DNA of 34,703 bases, taken from assembly GCA_022573485.1 (NCBI GenBank), contig JACZTW010000003.1, positions 1 to 34,703 of the forward strand, given 5' to 3'. Every line of letters starts with the position of its first letter. The stretch's first letter is position 1. The notes beneath the pieces are model-generated. The model made no database searches, was not told where the DNA came from, and saw only the letters and a list, made by a program, of their open reading frames with translations. A program made the position numbers and the translations under genes. Shown here piece after piece: positions 58-11,224 of the stretch. The DNA comes from Planctomycetota bacterium (lineage in GTDB: Bacteria; Planctomycetota; Phycisphaerae; UBA1845; CAIVHJ01).

Positions 58-99
58 GCCGGAGTGGCGGAATTGGCAGACGCGCGGGATTCAAAATCC
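58..99 (+). pseudogene. 5'-half copy of tRNA-Leu(CAA), truncated in the 3' side of the anticodon stem
   Basis: GCCGGAGTGGCGGAATTGGCAGACGCGCGGGATTCAAAATCC is identical to the first 42 nt of the intact tRNA at 2088-2171, then diverges; no T-arm or 3' acceptor strand follows. Confidence 0.9.
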
Positions 100-415: not shown

Positions 416-1909
416 ATGTCAAGGATCTTGCTCATTCTCGCAGCTGTCTGGCTTTCGGGAGATCCGGAACGTGCTTCTGGCGACCTCAGTGCAGAACAGC
501 TTGCTGAACATGTGGAAGTCATTAGCGGCGGATTCACCGGCGGTGATCGGGCCTACGTTCGTGTTGGTGATCATGTGTTCTTCGACGAGAGGCGCCGTGG
601 GCCACAACTGGCCGGCTTGTATGTTGTGGCAATCCACGGAAACAAGATCCTGCAGCAATTCCACTACAACACGTACGCGGTGCCTGGCGCCAGCGAAGGA
701 CTGGCCCGGGACATCGATTCGTTTCCTGATGGCACGCTGGTGATCGTTGCCGCCAAGGACGAAGCAACTCGCTTATTCGATCGCCGCGGACAGGAGGCCC
801 TGAAGCAGATCGGTGCCCAAACCGGCTTACTCGGTCAGCCCCCGCGCGGATCGTATTTGTGTATCGGCGTGAAAGGGATGGCTCCCGGCGAAGCCCGCGA
901 GCAATACGGAGACAAGAGGCAACAGTTTCGAGGGGCAAGAGCCGCCCATGCCGCCAACCTGGCTCCGTTGGAGGAACCTGCCCCACCGAAGATCTCAAGC
1001 ACATCAGGCGCTCACGTCCTGCATGTTGGCATTGACGTGTTTTATTACATTCCCCAAAACTTCGACCCGATGACCGCGGAGTACCTTGTTTGCATTCACG
1101 GGGCCGGCGATTGGCATCACATCGGTGCCGAAGCCAACATCAAGCGCTTCCAGTCCACCGCAGACAACAACAACCTGGTCCTCATCGCCCCGGCTTTCGA
1201 TTGCCTGCTCAATTGGCCGTTCAACCGCAAAAAGGACTACAGGAATCACAAATTCACTGATCCGAAAATCATCAAGGATTGGCACTATCACGATTTCATT
1301 GCTTTGCTGAATCGCCATACTGACAAGAGAAGCGATCTGAAGGTCCTTGAGGTGTTCCGACTGTTCAATGATCAGTTGATGAAACGTGATCAGTTCCATC
1401 TATATGGACACTCGGGGGGCGCCCAGTTCGTCAATCGTTTTGTCACCTTCCATCCTGAGCTGGTGGGCAAAGTGGCTTTATCCGCGGCAGGCAGCTTCAC
1501 TTTCCCGCAAAGATCCAAGGACTACCCATGGGGCCTGCGAACCAGAAACCTCAAGAAGTTCTTCGGTGAACAGATTGATACGAGTGGCATTCGATTGTCA
1601 TCGAGCGAGCTAGATGAAAAACTCGGGAGATTGCTTGATAGGCAGCTCTTCATCATCGTTGGAGAAGAGGACCCAACGGTGGTCAATACGGATTGCCCCT
1701 GGCAAGGATCCAACACGCTCGAACGTTCGCGTAACTACGTCGAGGCCATGCGGGACGAACACCAACGCCAGGTGCGGCGAGGAATGCGTCCACTGGACGA
1801 TCCGTTTCGGTTCGAACTGCATGCGCTTCCCGGCGTCGGGCATGATTCCGCTACCGGTGCATCCAAAGCCATCGAGTTGCTGTTTCCGTCGGAAGAAAAG
1901 AAACCGTGA
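416..1909 (+). CDS. Secreted ILEI/FAM3-like domain fused to an alpha/beta-hydrolase
   Basis: 497 aa; short hydrophobic N-terminus (MSRILLILAAVWLSG). N-terminal part has ILEI-like features (LYVVAIHG..ILQQFHYNTY..FPDGTLVIVAAKDEATR..GQEALKQIGA..PPRGSYLCIGVKG). C-terminal part has hydrolase features: CIHGAGDWHH, nucleophile elbow YGHSGG, GEEDPTVV, GVGHD. Confidence 0.8.
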   Translation: MSRILLILAAVWLSGDPERASGDLSAEQLAEHVEVISGGFTGGDRAYVRVGDHVFFDERRRGPQLAGLYVVAIHGNKILQQFHYNTYAVPGASEGLARDIDSFPDGTLVIVAAKDEATRLFDRRGQEALKQIGAQTGLLGQPPRGSYLCIGVKGMAPGEAREQYGDKRQQFRGARAAHAANLAPLEEPAPPKISSTSGAHVLHVGIDVFYYIPQNFDPMTAEYLVCIHGAGDWHHIGAEANIKRFQSTADNNNLVLIAPAFDCLLNWPFNRKKDYRNHKFTDPKIIKDWHYHDFIALLNRHTDKRSDLKVLEVFRLFNDQLMKRDQFHLYGHSGGAQFVNRFVTFHPELVGKVALSAAGSFTFPQRSKDYPWGLRTRNLKKFFGEQIDTSGIRLSSSELDEKLGRLLDRQLFIIVGEEDPTVVNTDCPWQGSNTLERSRNYVEAMRDEHQRQVRRGMRPLDDPFRFELHALPGVGHDSATGASKAIELLFPSEEKKP

Positions 1910-2087: not shown

Positions 2088-2171
2088 GCCGGAGTGGCGG
2101 AATTGGCAGACGCGCGGGATTCAAAATCCCGTTCTCGCAAGAGAGTGTGGGTTCAAGTCCCTCCTCCGGCA
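2088..2171 (+). tRNA. tRNA-Leu (anticodon CAA)
   Basis: Acceptor GCCGGAG/CTCCGGC plus discriminator A; anticodon stem-loop CGGGA-TTCAAAA-TCCCG (CAA); long variable arm; T-arm GTTCAAGTC. CCA is not encoded. Confidence 0.97.
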
Positions 2172-2235: not shown

Positions 2236-2364
2236 TCACGCCAGCCTTTGTACCGCGTCCCGCTTCGTGCCGTCGTCGATGTGCTGGTAGTACACCGCCG
2301 TCGTCCGCCCGCATTCGTGTGCGGCCAATCTCTGGACGACCAATTGATTTACACCCATGCGGGC
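2236..2364 (-). pseudogene. C-terminal remnant of a tyrosine recombinase/integrase
   Basis: In-frame minus-strand peptide ARMGVNQLVVQRLAAHECGRTTAVYYQHIDDGTKRDAVQRLA* matches the C-terminal end of phage-type integrases (AH...TTAVYY). Upstream part is missing where the IS630 left end begins (~2365). Confidence 0.8.
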
Positions 2365-2455
2365 TAGTGGTCCATTCCGCATGAAGTTGCGGGTATTGGG
2401 GTGAAAGCGTCGATCTTCATGACCGGGATTTGTTCCGAGATCATGGAGGATCGAC

Positions 2456-2902
2456 ATGAAAAGGTACCTGGTTCGGCTGGAGGCCGAGGAACGTGGGCGA
2501 CTGGAGCAACTCGTGCGGGTCGGTAAAGCCGCAGCCTACCGGATTCGTCACGCAAACATTCTGCTGGCGGTGGATGAATCGGAGGCCGGGCCGAAGCTGA
2601 AGGACGCCCAGGCCGCCGAGGCGTTTGGCGTGGCGGTGCGGTCTATCGAGTCGTTGCGGAAACGGGTCGTGGAAGAGGGGCTTGACGCGGCACTGGAGCG
2701 CAAGAAGCAGGTTCGTCCCAGCGTCGAACAAATGTTCGACGGCGAGAAGGAGGCCCAGCTGATCGCGATTGCCTGTGGCGCCAAGCCCGCAGGGCGTGTG
2801 CGCTGGACGTTGGAACTGCTGGCCGAGAAGGTCGTGGCGCTGAAGATCGTGGATCACTGTTCGCCGCAGACGATCATGCGGACGCTTAAAAAAACGAGAT
2901 AA
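2456..2902 (+). CDS. IS630-family transposase, N-terminal (HTH) part
   Basis: 148-aa ORF MKRYLVRLEAEERGRLEQLVRVGKAAAYRIRHANILLAVDES..; continues in the -1 frame after the A7 run at 2888-2894. Confidence 0.85.
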   Translation: MKRYLVRLEAEERGRLEQLVRVGKAAAYRIRHANILLAVDESEAGPKLKDAQAAEAFGVAVRSIESLRKRVVEEGLDAALERKKQVRPSVEQMFDGEKEAQLIAIACGAKPAGRVRWTLELLAEKVVALKIVDHCSPQTIMRTLKKTR

Positions 2903-3594
2903 AGCCGTGGCAGCATAAGATGTGGTGCATTCCGCCGAAGTGCAACGCCGAGTTTGTCTGCGCCATGGAGAACGTGCTGGCCGTTTACACGCGGCCGTAC
3001 GACGCCAATCATCCGGTGGTGTGCTTCGACGAAAAGAGCAAGCAACTGGTCGGGGAGGTCTGCAAGCCGATCCCGGCGGCGCCGGGACGGGCCGAGTGCC
3101 ACGACTACGAATACGTCCGCAACGGCACGGCGAACCTGTTCCTGCTGGTCGAACCGTTGCGTGGCTGGCGACAGGTGGACGTGACGACGCGGCGGACCAA
3201 GCTCGACTTCGCGAAACAGATGAAGGAACTCGTCGATGTCCACTACCCCGATGCCGCGAAGATTACGCTGCTGATGGACAACCTGAACACGCATCGGTTG
3301 TCGTGCCTGTACGAGGCCTTTGCGCCGACCGAGGCGCGCCGGTTGATCGAGAAGACCGAGGTGGTGCACACGCCCAAGCACGGCAGTTGGCTGAACCTGG
3401 CTGAGTGCGAGCTCAGCGTGCTGGAGAAACAATGCCTCGGTGAACGCATCGCTGACCAGGCGACCTTGCGGAGGCGAATGCAGGTGTGGAATGACAATCG
3501 AAACAGCCGGTCCAAGAATATCGACGGGCAATTCCGAACAGCCGATGCACGGATCAAGCTAAGAAGGCGCTACCCGCAGACTGAAATGGAATGA
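2893..3594 (+). CDS. IS630-family transposase, C-terminal DDE part (-1 frame continuation)
   Basis: After a -1 shift the reading is LKKNEIKPWQHKMWCIPPK..; VVCFDEKSK, LLMDNLNTH and GSWLNLAECEL give a plausible DDE triad. ORF track lists 2920-3594. Confidence 0.85.
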   Translation, partial: NEIKPWQHKMWCIPPKCNAEFVCAMENVLAVYTRPYDANHPVVCFDEKSKQLVGEVCKPIPAAPGRAECHDYEYVRNGTANLFLLVEPLRGWRQVDVTTRRTKLDFAKQMKELVDVHYPDAAKITLLMDNLNTHRLSCLYEAFAPTEARRLIEKTEVVHTPKHGSWLNLAECELSVLEKQCLGERIADQATLRRRMQVWNDNRNSRSKNIDGQFRTADARIKLRRRYPQTEME

Positions 3595-3601
3595 ACCACT
3601 A

Positions 3602-5116
3602 GTCGTCCCTGAAAAACACGTCAAACGGCTGTGACTGTAGCGTGCCATGGGGTTTCTGGTGGAGATACTCGTGGTATCCTTTGCAAGGTAGTTACGGATG
3701 ACGAACGAAAACCTTGCAATTTCGGCCACGACATGGAGGCTCTATGAAGCCCAAACCGCAGCCCGGCGACGCGTTCGAACTGTTCCAATCCCATTTCGAT
3801 CAGTTGCTCAATCCCGACCATGAGTTGGTGCTTGTGGCCAAGAAGATAAACTGGCCTGGGCTGGAGGCGGCGTTTGCCGATTGCTACTGCCCGGACATCG
3901 GCGCACCGGCAAAGGCTGTTCGCCTGCTGGTGGGCTTGCATTATCTCAAATACGCTTTCAGCGAATCGGACGAATCGGTCGTGGCGCGCTGGGTCGAGAA
4001 TCCCTACTGGCAATACTTTTGCGGCTACACGCACATGCAGCACGACTGTCCGATCCATCCGACCAGCATGACCAAGTGGCGGAATCGGGTCGGTGCCGAG
4101 CGGCTGGAGCAACTCCTCGCCGAAACGATTGCCCTGGCTGTTCGTGAGAAACACCTGCCCCAAAACGATCTTCAGCGTGTCACGGTGGACACGACGGTGC
4201 AGGAGAAAAACATCACTTTTCCCACCGACTCGAAGCTGTTGTACAAGGCCATTGTCCAACTTGGCGACGCGGCGAAAGCGCGCGGTATTCCGCTTCGACA
4301 GTCGTACGTCCGGGTGGGCAAGCGGGCGGCGGTCAAAGCCGGTCGTTACGCTCACGCCAAGCAGTTCAAACGCATGCAGCGGCGACTCCACAAGCTGCGC
4401 ACCTATGTGGGCCGACTGATTCGCGACATTCGCCGTAAGACGACGGACCTGGATGAGGGGCTGGCCACCTTGCTGGAGGGTGCGGAGCGGATTCGTTGCC
4501 AACAACCCAAAGACGCCAAGAAGCTCTACAGTTTGCACGAGCCGGAAGTGCCGTGCATCAGCAAGGGCAAAGCCCGCCAGCGTTACGAGTTTGGTCAGAA
4601 GGTGGGGTTGGCCACCACGAATCGCAGCAACTGGATCGTAGCGGCCCACCTCCTTCCAAACAATCCGTACGACGGCCACACGCTCACGGCCACGTTGACC
4701 GCGGTCGAGCAGATCACGGGAGTGGCACTGACGGATGCGTATGTTGATAAAGGCTATCGCGGTCATGGCTACACCGGCGGCGTAACGGTTCACATTGCCG
4801 GGCAGCGTCAGAAGAACGGGACACGCGCCGAACGAAATCGGAGGCGCCGGCGCAGCGCGATCGAACCGAAGATCGGCCACCTCAAGAGCGATCATCGCAT
4901 GGACCGGTGCTTCCTGGCCAGGCTTGCCGGCGATGCGATCAACGCCGTGCTCGCCGCCGCCGGGTCCAACCTGCGAAAGCTGCTGGGATTGTTCGGTAGC
5001 CAGAGGCGGCGGTTGGTTCTTGCGCTGATTCGCTGGCTCGAACACCTGAACGGTGGCCGCCCATTCTACTGGCTCAGTTATCTCGCCGCCGCGTAGACGG
5101 CTTTTTCAGGGACGAC
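3602..5116 (+). mobile_element. IS5-family-type insertion sequence
   Basis: Perfect 15-bp inverted repeats: GTCGTCCCTGAAAAA (3602-3616) and TTTTTCAGGGACGAC (5102-5116), flanking one transposase ORF. Confidence 0.88.
3744..5096 (+). CDS. IS5-family-type transposase
   Basis: KAVRLLVGLHYLKYAFSESDESVVARWVENPYWQYFCG, VTVDTTVQEKN, YVDKGYRGHGY, AIEPKIGHLKSDHRMDRCFL. Start chosen at ATG 3744 (MKPKPQPG) after a GGAGG; ORF track starts at 3714. Confidence 0.92.
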   Translation: MKPKPQPGDAFELFQSHFDQLLNPDHELVLVAKKINWPGLEAAFADCYCPDIGAPAKAVRLLVGLHYLKYAFSESDESVVARWVENPYWQYFCGYTHMQHDCPIHPTSMTKWRNRVGAERLEQLLAETIALAVREKHLPQNDLQRVTVDTTVQEKNITFPTDSKLLYKAIVQLGDAAKARGIPLRQSYVRVGKRAAVKAGRYAHAKQFKRMQRRLHKLRTYVGRLIRDIRRKTTDLDEGLATLLEGAERIRCQQPKDAKKLYSLHEPEVPCISKGKARQRYEFGQKVGLATTNRSNWIVAAHLLPNNPYDGHTLTATLTAVEQITGVALTDAYVDKGYRGHGYTGGVTVHIAGQRQKNGTRAERNRRRRRSAIEPKIGHLKSDHRMDRCFLARLAGDAINAVLAAAGSNLRKLLGLFGSQRRRLVLALIRWLEHLNGGRPFYWLSYLAAA

Positions 5117-5839: not shown

Positions 5840-5971
5840 GCCGAGTTCTTGAGGTTCGCAAGTTGTTGTCTGATTGGGGGATAGCGAATTGCCGCATCGG
5901 CCTTTTAAGCCGCTGGTCGGAGGTTCGCCTGGTGGTCCGCGTTCTCGGTGTCCGAAGGGTTAAGATGTGAC

Positions 5972-8900
5972 TCAAGGAATGCCCAGCCCGGTAAGGCATT
6001 GGATGTCGGCTGCAGGGTCTGCCAACCACAGATCGGAATGGCCGTCGGCGGTGATGTCGCCGAATCTCACGGCCTGACCGGTGTCCTGTCCGCTCAGCAA
6101 GGCCATATCAAAGTCGTTGTCCGTGTCTGAGTACCGCAGGGGCGGACCGTTCGAACTGATCGGGCCGAACAAAACGTACGCATCGCCCGTGCCGTAGTTG
6201 CCGACGATCAGGTCGAGATCCCCGTCACCATCGAGATCGCCCAACGCCGTCGCGTGGCCTAGAATCCCTATGCTCACGGTTCGCGTATTGATGATCTCCA
6301 CGATGCCGTTGCGCGTGATCGGACCGCTGGTATTGATCGTCGGCGGAATGATCCGCACGGCGTTCTCGCCCGGCAATCCCACGATGACGTCGTCGAAGGT
6401 GCCGGCGCTGCTGGTGAAAGGACCGCTGACGATGTCTCCCGGCAAGCCGTCGCTGCCGAGCATGTCCGTCGATCCCGCGTATGTGTACTGGATCGCGGGC
6501 TGGGCGCTCAGGCTCCCTTCCGCACCGGGGAATAAGAACAGCCCTCCCGTGGTCGTGCCTGCCCCAGCAGTCGCCACCCAGAGATCCATCGGCCCGCCGT
6601 CGAAGTTGCCCACGCCCAGCGAGGCGCCGAAAAATTCGTCGCTGCCGGCCGTGCCGTTGAGCGCCACTCCGTTACTCCCGGCGACAGCGACCGTGAGCGG
6701 CCCCGACGGCGGCAAGTTGTTGGCCGGGAGCGTGCTGGGCCGGCCGTAGATCACGTAGACAGCGCCCTCATCGTTGCTGACACCGTCTTCGTCCTCGCCG
6801 GGGGCGCTGACCGCCAAATCGTCAATGCCGTCTGCCGTAAAATCCGCGACAGCCACGTCGGCGTGCAGGCCTTCGCCGGTGGTCGCATTCTGTGTGCCGC
6901 GAGTCGTGTAGGTGCGCAGCGAGGCGCCGTCGGCCGGATCGGGACCGCCCGACAGCAGCAGCACGTAAACGTGGGACACCGTGTTGGCCGAGGCAGTATT
7001 GCTCACCACCGCGATGTCCCGATGGCCGTCGCCGTTGAAATCACCGGAGCCGATGGCGACGATTCTCTCGTCAGGACCGTTGGCAGGCAGGATGATCGCG
7101 GTGCCGATCCCCGGCGTGAAGCTATTCACCGGGGAGCTCCAATCGCCGTTGACAGCCTCGGGACCGCCATTCGCATCTGCACCGGCGGTCAGCAAGTGCG
7201 GGGCGCCGAACATGATGTGGATTACCGGGGACAGGCCCGGTGTGTTGGCAGCTCCGATCGTGCAAACGTCGCCATAGCCGTCGCCGTCAAAGTCTTCCCC
7301 CACGATCGTCTTCCTCTGGGCCACGCCCGGGCCCGTACGCCGGAAAGTATCGCCGTTACCCACGCCCACGCCGGGATGCACGACCTTGTTGGCTTCGAAC
7401 GGCTGAACTCCCGTTCCCGCCGTAAGAGCCCTCGGCTCTCCCACCTCCAAGTCCAGATTGATGAACGGCGGCTCAGCCGCCTCCACGCCGGCCTCACCAT
7501 TCACCTGCGGGTTGAGTGGGGCATCCGGCGCGTTGCCGATGTACAGCACTACCGCGCCCGACACCGGATTCGTGGGATCGGTGAGCGCCCTATTGCCGGT
7601 CACCGTGCTGCCAATGGCTTGATTCGTACCCAGCAACACCGTTGCCGCACCGACGCCCAGTTCAGTCGTGTCGATGGTGATGGTGGTGTCGATATCCTCG
7701 CCGGGCGACACTTGGACTTGCCCGAGCAAAACCACGTTGTCTGAGGGCGGCAGTCCGCTGGGCCGTGAGTAGACATTGATGAGCGTCATCAAGGTCGTGG
7801 TGTATCGGATCGGCAAAGTAAGACTGGCTCCGGGCTCAATGTAGTAGCGGGTTCGAGCGCCCGGTTGGAGTAAGACTTCCGGAGGCTCAAGCAGACCCCA
7901 GCACCCCAGCATCAGGGCCAAGTCGAACGCACCCACCGCGCCGTCTTCGTCGAAATCCGCGGGATGGCCGGGGTTCGGACCCCACGCACCGAGCAACTCT
8001 GCCAAATCCGGAGCATTGATCACGCCGTCTTGAGTCAGGTCTACCGGCAGGCAGGGATTCTCGCATTCATCCGGGACGCCGCTGCCGTCTTCGTCCGGAC
8101 TCGTGCCGTCGGCGATGTCGCACTCGTCGGGCACTTCGTTTTCGTTGCAGTCCGGGCTTCCGCCGTCGGCAATATCGCAGGAATCGTCGTTATCGTTGCC
8201 GTTGCAGTCGGTAATCACGCCCGGCTGGCACGTGCCATCGACTGGCGCGCAGAATTCGACGCCGTTGCACGCATCGCCGTCGCTGCACACGATGCCCTCA
8301 TTGACGCATCCCACGCTCGGATCGCAGGTGTCGTCCGTACAAGCGTTGAGGTCATCACAGTCCAGCGGCGTACCCGCCTGACAGGTTCCGCCAACGCACA
8401 ACTCGTCACCGTTGCACACATCGCCGTCGTCGCAGGAATTGGCATCGTTGGGCGTATTCACGCAGCCGTCCAGCGAATCGCAAATGTCGTCCGTGCAGGG
8501 ATTGAGGTCGTCGCAATCCAGTAGCGCACCTGCCTGGCAGATTCCGCCAACGCAGGTCTCGGCACCGTTGCAGACATCTCCGTCGTCGCAGGAGTTGAGA
8601 TCGTTGGGCGTATTGACACAGCCGCCCAGCGGATCACAGGCGTCATCCGTACAGGGATTAGCGTCGTCGCAATCCAGCGGCGTGCCCGCCTGACAGATCC
8701 CGCTAACACAGGCCTCGTCACCGTTGCAGACATTGCCGTCGTCGCAGGAGTTGGTATCGTTGGGCGTGTGGACGCAGCCGGCTACCGCATCGCAGGCGTC
8801 ATCCGTACAGGAATTAGCGTCGTCACAATCGGGCGGCGTACCCCCCTGACAGATCCCGCCCAGGCAGGTCTCGTCACCGTTGCAGACATCGCCGTCATCG

Positions 8901-11224
8901 CAGGAGTTGGTATCGTTGGGCGTGTTCACGCAACCGACCAGTGGATCGCAACCGTCGGCCGTGCAGGGATTAGCGTCGTCGCAATCCAGCGGCGTACCTG
9001 CCTGACAGATCCCGCCGACGCACAGCTCGTCACCGTTGCAGACATCGCCGTCGTCGCAGGACGCTCGGGCAGGCTGATCGGTACAGTCAAACCCCGGGCT
9101 GGTGCAACGCGGATCGGCGCAGCCCACCGGGTTGTCACCTTCGCCATCACCACAGCAGAACCGATTGTTAGGATTGCCGCTTTGCAGGCCGTTGCAATCC
9201 TCCGGACAGGACAGGCAATCCTCCCCATCGCCGATCTCGCAGACGCCGTTGCCACAGCTTGCACCAGCGACGGGATCGTTCACGCAGCCAATCGCAGGGT
9301 CGCACGCGTCCGTCGTACAGGCGTTGGCGTCGTCGCAATCGAGCGGCGTGCCCGCCTGACACGTCCCGCCCACGCACAGCTCGTTGCCGTTGCAGGCATC
9401 GCCGTCGTCACAGGAATTGGCATCGTTGGGCGTATTCACGCAACCACCCAGCGGATCGCAACCGTCATCCGTACAGGGATTGAGGTCATCACAGTCCAGC
9501 AGCGTACCCGCCTGACAAGCCCCGCCCACGCACAGCTCAGCGCCGTTGCACACATCGCCGTCGTCGCAGGAGTTGGCATCGTTGGGCGTGTTCACGCAAC
9601 CAGCCAGCGGATCGCAACCGTCATCCGTACAGGGATTGAGGTCATCGCAGTCCAGCGGCGTACCCACCTGACAGGCCCCGCCCATGCACAGCTCGTTGCC
9701 GTTGCAGGCATCGCCGTCGTCGCAGTTGGAATCTGCAGGCGTGAACTGGCAATCGTTCAGGGGATCACACGTATCTTCCGTGCAGCTTACACCATCATCG
9801 CAATTGGCATCATTCGCGATCGACGTGCAATCGTTGACTGGATCACAGATGTCGTCCGTGCATGCCACGCCGTCGTCGCAGATCGTGTCGTAGGGTACAT
9901 TCTGGCAATCGTTTGTAAGGTCACAGAAATCCGTAGTGCATTCGACGCCGTCGTCACACAGGCTGTGGTGCGGCAGATGCAAGCAACCAACCAACGGATT
10001 GCAGCTGTCCGCAGTGCAGCCCACCTCGTCGACACAGTTGGCGTGATTGGGCGTGTTGACGCAGCCGATGGCAGAATCACAAGTATCATCGGTACACGGG
10101 ATCCCGTCGTCGCAAAGCGAAAGATCGACGGGCTCGTTGACGCAACCGGAATTCGGATCACACGTGTCGTTCGTGCAGATATCGGCGTCATCGCACGTCG
10201 CAGGATCGATCTGGGTAATCACGCATTCGCCCGCAATCGGTTCACAGAAATCGCTGGTGCAGAAATTGAGGTCATCACAATCGCTCGATGTCATGCAGAA
10301 GCAGAAAACCGTGATTTCGTCAACGAAGATGTGGGAATTCGTTTCACGAATCTTGAACGTGGTCGTCGCCAGCCCGTCGGGGACGGATGAAAACAAGGCG
10401 AAATCGACGGTGCCCCGTGATGGGCCGGTGCTGACGAACGCAGCCAGAATCTCCGACTCCGTGATCACATAGTCGATACCATCATTTCCCGAAATGAAGA
10501 TCACGGGATCATCATTGGAGAAGTCAATCTGGTTCAAGCCAAGGAGAATCTTGTCCGCGCGCACCGGGCCATCGAAGGTGAAGATGACTTCCTCATCTTT
10601 GGCGTTTCCCTGGCCATCGATTCCCAATCCGCCGATGCCGCAGTCTGTGCGGCGAACACCCGTGCCATCGAGAGTCAGCACAACGGAGCCGGGATTACCG
10701 GGGGCATTGGGATCAGTCGGGCTGCCGGTGGCGACGCTGGTTCTCGCCGTCAGGACCACAGAAGCGGCCTGGCCTTCGCTGTTCTGGGGGCGATAAACAT
10801 CTTGACAGACGCTTCCCTGGGCAGAATCCGTCAAAACGACCGACTCAAGGATGCACGGCACAGGCTGGTTGCAGACCCCATCGAGACATGCTTCATCGCC
10901 GGGACAGACGACAGGAGTGTGGACACAAGAGAAGTCGATGCAACTATCGATGGTGCAGCCATCGCCGTCGTCGCATTCCGCGGCGCCCCCGCAGCCGACA
11001 CCCGCAGCCGAACGTCTCTGTGTGCCGGCGACATCGTGCGGTGCTACAAGCGACGAGGAATAATCCGATGGAGACCAATCGCGAGGCCGGTCCACTGAAA
11101 CGCGTGGTAACCATGCTGGCAGGAGCACCATGCTCTGCAACTGACCGACTGCAGACGGCAATCTGAGCAGCGTTTGAACTCCGAGGAGCGCCAACGCCAA
11201 TGTGAGGACCGCCCACTTATTCAC
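5972..11224 (-). CDS. Giant secreted Cys-rich CTDC-like repeat protein with dockerin-like pair and FG-GAP-like C-terminus
   Basis: 1750 aa; N-terminal signal-like MNKWAVLTLALALLGVQTLLRLPSAVGQ. Many CDDGDVCNGDELCVGGTCQAGTPLDCDDLNPCTDDGCDPLGGCVNTPNDANS units; DLTQDGVINAPDLAELLGAWGP..ADFDEDGAVGAFDLALMLGCWG; then ADFTADGIDDLAVSAPGEDED, GDLDGDGDLDLIVGNYGTGDAYVLFG, GDITADGHSDLWLADP. Confidence 0.9.
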   Translation of the reverse strand: MNKWAVLTLALALLGVQTLLRLPSAVGQLQSMVLLPAWLPRVSVDRPRDWSPSDYSSSLVAPHDVAGTQRRSAAGVGCGGAAECDDGDGCTIDSCIDFSCVHTPVVCPGDEACLDGVCNQPVPCILESVVLTDSAQGSVCQDVYRPQNSEGQAASVVLTARTSVATGSPTDPNAPGNPGSVVLTLDGTGVRRTDCGIGGLGIDGQGNAKDEEVIFTFDGPVRADKILLGLNQIDFSNDDPVIFISGNDGIDYVITESEILAAFVSTGPSRGTVDFALFSSVPDGLATTTFKIRETNSHIFVDEITVFCFCMTSSDCDDLNFCTSDFCEPIAGECVITQIDPATCDDADICTNDTCDPNSGCVNEPVDLSLCDDGIPCTDDTCDSAIGCVNTPNHANCVDEVGCTADSCNPLVGCLHLPHHSLCDDGVECTTDFCDLTNDCQNVPYDTICDDGVACTDDICDPVNDCTSIANDANCDDGVSCTEDTCDPLNDCQFTPADSNCDDGDACNGNELCMGGACQVGTPLDCDDLNPCTDDGCDPLAGCVNTPNDANSCDDGDVCNGAELCVGGACQAGTLLDCDDLNPCTDDGCDPLGGCVNTPNDANSCDDGDACNGNELCVGGTCQAGTPLDCDDANACTTDACDPAIGCVNDPVAGASCGNGVCEIGDGEDCLSCPEDCNGLQSGNPNNRFCCGDGEGDNPVGCADPRCTSPGFDCTDQPARASCDDGDVCNGDELCVGGICQAGTPLDCDDANPCTADGCDPLVGCVNTPNDTNSCDDGDVCNGDETCLGGICQGGTPPDCDDANSCTDDACDAVAGCVHTPNDTNSCDDGNVCNGDEACVSGICQAGTPLDCDDANPCTDDACDPLGGCVNTPNDLNSCDDGDVCNGAETCVGGICQAGALLDCDDLNPCTDDICDSLDGCVNTPNDANSCDDGDVCNGDELCVGGTCQAGTPLDCDDLNACTDDTCDPSVGCVNEGIVCSDGDACNGVEFCAPVDGTCQPGVITDCNGNDNDDSCDIADGGSPDCNENEVPDECDIADGTSPDEDGSGVPDECENPCLPVDLTQDGVINAPDLAELLGAWGPNPGHPADFDEDGAVGAFDLALMLGCWGLLEPPEVLLQPGARTRYYIEPGASLTLPIRYTTTLMTLINVYSRPSGLPPSDNVVLLGQVQVSPGEDIDTTITIDTTELGVGAATVLLGTNQAIGSTVTGNRALTDPTNPVSGAVVLYIGNAPDAPLNPQVNGEAGVEAAEPPFINLDLEVGEPRALTAGTGVQPFEANKVVHPGVGVGNGDTFRRTGPGVAQRKTIVGEDFDGDGYGDVCTIGAANTPGLSPVIHIMFGAPHLLTAGADANGGPEAVNGDWSSPVNSFTPGIGTAIILPANGPDERIVAIGSGDFNGDGHRDIAVVSNTASANTVSHVYVLLLSGGPDPADGASLRTYTTRGTQNATTGEGLHADVAVADFTADGIDDLAVSAPGEDEDGVSNDEGAVYVIYGRPSTLPANNLPPSGPLTVAVAGSNGVALNGTAGSDEFFGASLGVGNFDGGPMDLWVATAGAGTTTGGLFLFPGAEGSLSAQPAIQYTYAGSTDMLGSDGLPGDIVSGPFTSSAGTFDDVIVGLPGENAVRIIPPTINTSGPITRNGIVEIINTRTVSIGILGHATALGDLDGDGDLDLIVGNYGTGDAYVLFGPISSNGPPLRYSDTDNDFDMALLSGQDTGQAVRFGDITADGHSDLWLADPAADIQCLTGLGIP
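8220..10290 (-). repeat. Tandem 156-bp (52-aa) Cys-rich coding repeats
   Basis: The core 'gttgggcg' recurs at 8447, 8603, 8759 and 8915 (exactly 156 bp apart) and at 9425 and 9581 (156 bp), with more divergent units at the flanks. Outer limits are approximate. Confidence 0.9.

Follow-up and report, generated by a model that had tools for sequence, protein, structure and literature searches.

The window, by which the whole analysed stretch of 34,703 nucleotides from a Planctomycetota bacterium is meant, contains a gene whose product joins an N-terminal ILEI/FAM3-type domain to a C-terminal alpha/beta-hydrolase domain. The fusion recurs in a second genome of the same class (G654), where a second ILEI domain and a GH43-like propeller are added, and in both genomes the gene lies in a short segment bounded by an intact tRNA gene and a tRNA fragment. 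We lean towards the view that the window protein is a secreted two-domain serine esterase directed at carbohydrates, with the ILEI domain in a role like that of a carbohydrate-binding module. The features of the gene and its product are:

416-1909, forward strand: ILEI-hydrolase fusion gene, 497 aa, the sole credible gene between the tRNA copies (open reading frame listing; ortholog)
416-475, forward strand: probable signal peptide covering roughly the first 20 aa, judged by eye from the hydrophobic start (MSRILLILAAVWLSG); the model has a helix at 2-13
503-940, forward strand: ILEI/FAM3-like domain, aa 30-175 (PF15711; AF2 model; Foldseek)
611-847, forward strand: equivalents of POMGnT1 R129/D179/R207 by alignment, namely Ala66 (611-613), Asp115 (758-760) and Arg144 (845-847)
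1007-1906, forward strand: alpha/beta-hydrolase domain, aa 198-497, PahZ1/LpqC-like (phmmer, profile, Foldseek)
1097-1102, forward strand: candidate oxyanion-hole segment His228-Gly229 (HG invariant in 17 sequences)
1202-1327, forward strand: insert aa 263-304, candidate lid (pLDDT below 50; conserved in the G654 ortholog)
1412-1414, forward strand: Ser333, predicted nucleophile in GHSGG (invariant among 17 aligned sequences)
1670-1672, forward strand: Asp419, predicted catalytic acid in GEEDPT (invariant among the same 17)
1841-1843, forward strand: His476, predicted catalytic base in GVGHD (likewise invariant)

The ILEI domain and its putative sugar site

The initial annotation had proposed the fusion of an ILEI/FAM3 domain to a secreted-type alpha/beta-hydrolase on the basis of short motifs. 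The open reading frame was confirmed, and the motifs were located at aa 112-118 (AAKDEAT), 142-149 (PPRGSYLC), 331-335 (GHSGG), 416-421 (GEEDPT) and 473-477 (GVGHD). Pfam PF15711, phmmer and the ortholog alignment agree on the fusion. Judged from its N-terminal sequence, the protein is probably secreted, and the signal peptide is more obvious in the G654 ortholog (MKVSSKLHIFTILAVTLNLFIASLVVAA).

PF15711 (ILEI) matched aa 67-154 (614-877) with 44.4 bits, well over the curated cut-off of 27 bits (E=2.4e-11). A profile built from 14 Planctomycetota ILEI sequences found FAM3A (3e-16), FAM3B, POMGnT1 (6e-15), FAM3C and TMEM2 (8c6i). The AF2 model of the ILEI domain alone had a mean pLDDT of 91.7, and a Foldseek comparison with the PDB yielded 21 matches with E<=0.001, every one of them POMGnT1, FAM3A/B/C or TMEM2, after which E jumped to about 0.3. 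The stem of POMGnT1 matched best (TM 0.78-0.80, rmsd 1.9 A). The expected similarity to FAM3B and FAM3C was thus found, and the modelled domain has the beta-beta-alpha sandwich fold of these two proteins (PMC9802357). The jelly-roll fold that had been assumed at the outset was therefore rejected.

FAM3 cytokine-like proteins are secreted single domains that stand alone and are marked by conserved cysteines. Unlike POMGnT1 and FAM3, the ILEI region of the window protein has a single cysteine (Cys149), and the domain does not stand alone but is fused to a hydrolase, so that a reading as a FAM3 cytokine was also discarded. The ILEI domain had been described as best known from animals. It is in fact common in the tail-fibre proteins of phages and, in Planctomycetota, appears in several further architectures, so that the domain is not particularly characteristic of animals; among viral models, Foldseek matched the window domain to phage tail-fibre and hinge-connector proteins.

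The stem of POMGnT1 binds GlcNAc via Arg129, Asp179 and Arg207, and sugar binding has also been described for FAM3C and FAM3A (PMC9802357). Hyaluronan degradation requires the GG/ILEI domain in mouse TMEM2 as well as in HYBID/CEMIP (PMC10276149). At the three POMGnT1 positions, all three fused ILEI copies (one in the window protein, two in the G654 ortholog) have Ala/Asp/Arg, so that the window domain retains two of the three residues, while the full Arg/Asp/Arg triad is kept in 6 of 11 other aligned Planctomycetota ILEI domains. Because the equivalent of Arg129 is an alanine in every fused copy, the ligand may differ from that of POMGnT1, and sugar binding by the fused domains may be altered or lost.

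The latter case would leave the ILEI domain as a structural or protein-protein module and the enzyme as a general secreted esterase. The uniform loss of the first arginine in the fused copies would fit this explanation, as would the presence of ILEI domains in phage tail fibres. Against it stand the retention of the Asp115 and Arg144 equivalents in 3 of 3 fused copies and the duplication of the ILEI domain beside the glycosidase in the G654 ortholog, and we regard it as distinctly unlikely.

The window domain shares with the POMGnT1 stem and FAM3A/B/C the fold, a significant sequence match, and the aspartate and second arginine of the sugar site, and, as in POMGnT1, a non-catalytic ILEI domain would precede a sugar-active enzyme. 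Unlike POMGnT1, the window protein is bacterial, has a hydrolase instead of a glycosyltransferase as partner and carries the alanine at the Arg129 position. With the GG domains of TMEM2 and CEMIP it has in common the domain family and a putative sugar-degrading context; it differs from these proteins in having neither a G8 domain nor a parallel beta-helix, and the active site is provided by a separate hydrolase domain. Even for the animal ILEI/FAM3 domains, ligand and role are not settled. A bacterial ILEI-hydrolase whose relative also has a GH43-like glycosidase provides a soluble system for testing ILEI as a general carbohydrate-binding module, and the change from Arg to Ala at a known sugar site leads to a testable prediction about specificity.

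The hydrolase domain

The assignment of the C-terminal half to the alpha/beta-hydrolases held in a phmmer search against PDB sequences, which found the poly(aspartic acid) hydrolase PahZ1 (9o7u, 1e-12) and LpqC (3d0k, 5e-8), but not at the level of Pfam, where Abhydrolase_1 remained below the cut-off (23.8 vs 25.8 bits). No match of the window protein to PF00756 (Esterase) or PF10503 (Esterase_PHB) was listed at E<=10. With a hydrolase profile the PDB matches were led by PahZ1 (6ve6, 7.6e-77) and LpqC (7.9e-66); far weaker were monoacylglycerol lipase and the feruloyl, chlorogenic or cinnamoyl esterases. The same two proteins were the best structural matches of the full-length model (pLDDT 84.5), with a Foldseek E of 1.7e-18, a TMt of 0.72 and about 21% identity for PahZ1 (9o7u). 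The suggestion of a feruloyl-esterase-like enzyme finds no specific backing in these matches: the nearest solved hydrolases are PahZ1 and LpqC and the profile matches to cinnamoyl/feruloyl esterases were weak (2e-6 to 2e-4).

The proposed Ser-Asp-His residues fared well: Ser333, Asp419 and His476 are unchanged in 17 of 17 aligned relatives, an alignment that leaves out the G654 ortholog. In the latter the Ser and His motifs are kept and GEEETN stands where the window protein has GEEDPT, so that its catalytic acid would be a glutamate. Homology over the full domain and the conserved Ser-Asp-His residues, as read from the sequence, mark the domain as PahZ1/LpqC-like. It shares with its two best solved relatives the HG, GHSxG, Asp and His motifs, and it differs from them by an identity of only about 20%, by a longer insert around 263-304 and by the N-terminal ILEI domain. 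The insert is also longer than that of single-domain relatives in alignments in which some of the leader sequences of these relatives were misplaced.

The G654 ortholog and the proposed substrate

An ILEI domain over the cut-off was present in 12 of 392 genomes sampled from the phylum and in 2 of 347 from the class, and these two were the window genome and G654. The G654 protein has 981 amino acids in the order signal peptide, ILEI, hydrolase, ILEI and GH43-like propeller. Its first 507 residues are 50% identical to the window protein over 492 aa (E=1e-166), which excludes that the window fusion arose by chance. The second ILEI copy is 46% identical over 147 aa. The C-terminal part matched Glyco_hydro_43 (E=1.5e-15) and is by sequence nearest to a GH43 beta-galactosidase and endo-1,5-arabinanases; within the order of G654, this propeller was also found on its own or with a DUF2961 or ADP_ribosyl_GH domain as partner. 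The fusion thus recurs within the class, with G654 supplying the only ortholog found. Scans of genome contigs and viral contigs with the whole window protein revealed no confirmed relative. With a small ILEI alignment, the genome contigs gave two Planctomycetota matches, both already among the ILEI carriers found, and the viral contigs none. A tblastn search of plasmids and phages returned, among the matches listed, only homologs of the hydrolase half (23-30% identity).

In other Planctomycetota the ILEI domain is C-terminal to glycosidase-like regions in two proteins (L033, as judged by eye, and L034, where Glyco_hydro_2_C matches weakly), and it is fused to YfhO-type membrane proteins (L037). 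Two further architectures were observed: a kinase fragment followed by an FGE-sulfatase domain and, at the C-terminus, by an ILEI domain that has the full Arg/Asp/Arg triad (L003, G036:C340), and an ILEI domain within an open frame of 3,434 aa (L032, G071:C127).

The recurrence of the fusion together with a second ILEI domain and a GH43-like propeller is the reason why a carbohydrate-directed esterase is favoured, and it suggests that both proteins trim sugar polymers. The glycan-targeted esterase proposed in the initial annotation thereby receives independent support. In the proposed mechanism the ILEI domain would hold the enzyme on a polysaccharide, like a carbohydrate-binding module, and the predicted Ser333-Asp419-His476 triad would cleave off a substituent held by an ester bond, such as an acetyl or hydroxycinnamoyl group. 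Such a deacylation could open the chain to glycosidases, for example the GH43-like module of the G654 ortholog. Several observations count against a carbohydrate esterase: the alanine at the Arg129 position, the cleavage of amides by PahZ1, the glutamate as putative acid in G654 and the single ortholog. In addition, the incomplete genome to which the window belongs (assembly 81% complete, 5.8% contamination) yielded no GH43. The arabinose genes araB and araD close to the G654 ortholog, and with them a Fucose_iso_C-type isomerase, give weak support for a glycan role because they lie outside its tRNA-bounded segment.

The similarity to PahZ1 also opens another possibility, namely a depolymerase of the PahZ1/LpqC type that would attack polyesters or the amide bonds of poly-amino acids, its ILEI domain serving only to anchor or position it, e.g., at a capsule or matrix. 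PahZ1 hydrolyses beta-amide linkages in poly(Asp), and a common ancestry with PHB depolymerases has been suggested for it (PMC4456602); LpqC is named a putative PHB depolymerase. PahZ1 and LpqC lead the matches by sequence as well as by structure, and in another Planctomycetota genome (L013, G369:C4) a PahZ1/LpqC-like hydrolase is fused to a PGA_cap capsule-synthesis domain. Nevertheless, the low identity to PahZ1 in the structural alignment, the fusion to a GH43-like glycosidase in G654, which points to sugar polymers, and the lineage-specific insert around 263-304, which suggests a different substrate site, make this alternative unlikely. An ester rather than an amide would be the substrate of the carbohydrate-directed enzyme that we prefer.

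The tRNA-bounded segments

The surroundings of the gene in the window contain the following features:

58-99, forward strand: displaced 42-nt fragment of tRNA-Leu(CAA), 5' half to the anticodon arm, left segment end
2088-2171, forward strand: intact tRNA-Leu(CAA), right segment end (ARAGORN)
2236-2400, reverse strand: C-terminal part of a truncated tyrosine recombinase, shortly beyond the segment end and broken off ahead of the IS elements; reads LVVQRLAAHECGRTTAVYYQHIDD
2456-2902 (HTH_32) and 2920-3594 (DDE_3), forward strand: IS630-like transposase, split in two open reading frames
3714-5096, forward strand: DUF772/DDE_Tnp_1 transposase

It had been noted that the gene lies in a tRNA-bounded segment, and this could be specified. 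The fragment is 100% identical to 2088-2129, and its 42-nt sequence occurs only twice in the genome with 3 mismatches allowed. Joining 1-99 to 2130 onwards restores a complete tRNA-Leu (ARAGORN). The segment is 2.0 kb long, and the contig starts just 57 nt before the left fragment. In G654 the ortholog gene is flanked by an intact tRNA-Arg(TCT) and, at a distance of 3,467 bp (3.5 kb) from it, by a 42-nt repeat of the 3' half of this tRNA (41 of 42 positions identical). The fragment is thus a 5' fragment upstream in the window and a 3' fragment downstream in G654. In both segments the repeats end in the anticodon arm, the gene and the tRNA have the same orientation, and the ILEI-hydrolase gene is the only credible gene. 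The G+C content is lower inside than around the segments (0.55 vs 0.59 in the window, 0.40 vs 0.47-0.51 in G654).

Both loci therefore have an intact tRNA together with a correctly placed and oriented end fragment, and an integrase was absent from the inside of both segments. Elsewhere in the window genome and in G654, 14 and 3 matches to tyrosine recombinases were found, respectively. The recombinase remnant beside the window segment comprises 54 aa (2239-2400) with a weak match to PF00589 (E=0.011, profile positions 140-168 of 172), and the two transposase loci (2456-5096, forward strand) directly follow this truncated gene. The surroundings of 35 and 45 tRNA predictions in the two genomes contained no other kb-scale pair of a tRNA and a fragment on the same strand, a count that could miss pairs because contig ends cut many of the scanned regions. 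Three congeners of G654 share its nusA region and have no tRNA-Arg there; for this reason a clean empty site was not obtained and the insertion could not be polarised.

Islands with 5' fragments are known but rare in the Islander collection (159 of 3,919), and Islander rejects candidates without an integrase (PMC4383910). The two segments, in two genomes, resemble Islander-type islands in that a tRNA is paired with a correctly oriented end fragment and that the crossover falls within the anticodon arm. They differ from such islands in that they hold one gene, lack an integrase and are only 2.0 and 3.5 kb long, and the integrase filter would discard both. Their appearance is that of tRNA-integrated islands that are either minimal or decayed. 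A more far-reaching proposal, which we put forward tentatively and consider doubtful, is that integrase-less, tRNA-targeted mini-islands with the ILEI-hydrolase gene as their only cargo would be moved in trans by tyrosine recombinases of the host or resident in it, and that glycan-degrading genes would thus spread one at a time among Planctomycetota in the form of minimal tRNA cassettes. If true, island finders that require an integrase miss a class of cargo.

The same setting could also mean that a genomic island has died and that the gene, left in it as a passenger, is decaying and no longer has a function. The lack of an integrase in either segment, the truncated recombinase and IS elements next to the window segment, and the low G+C content of both segments are compatible with such a decay. 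It is highly improbable, as the reading frame is intact and the nucleophile and histidine motifs are kept in both genomes, at 50% identity across the shared length.

Other traces of tRNA sequences were also observed. Positions 5894-5927 (forward strand) of the window are an exact 34-nt fragment (positions 24-57 of 73) of tRNA-Lys(TTT), the intact gene of which is on another contig, far from the fragment, and this is possibly a second integration scar. Among the tRNAs scanned in the two genomes, a tRNA-Asn(GTT) (L088, G000:C342, 89-568) is accompanied by three partial same-strand copies within 0.4 kb, an apparent integration hot spot. Further downstream in the window, an open reading frame of 1,750 aa (5972-11224, reverse strand) shows by eye many near-identical cysteine-rich repeats of the type CDDGD.CNG.E.C..G.CQ.GTPLDCDD, followed by dockerin-like and FG-GAP-like stretches.
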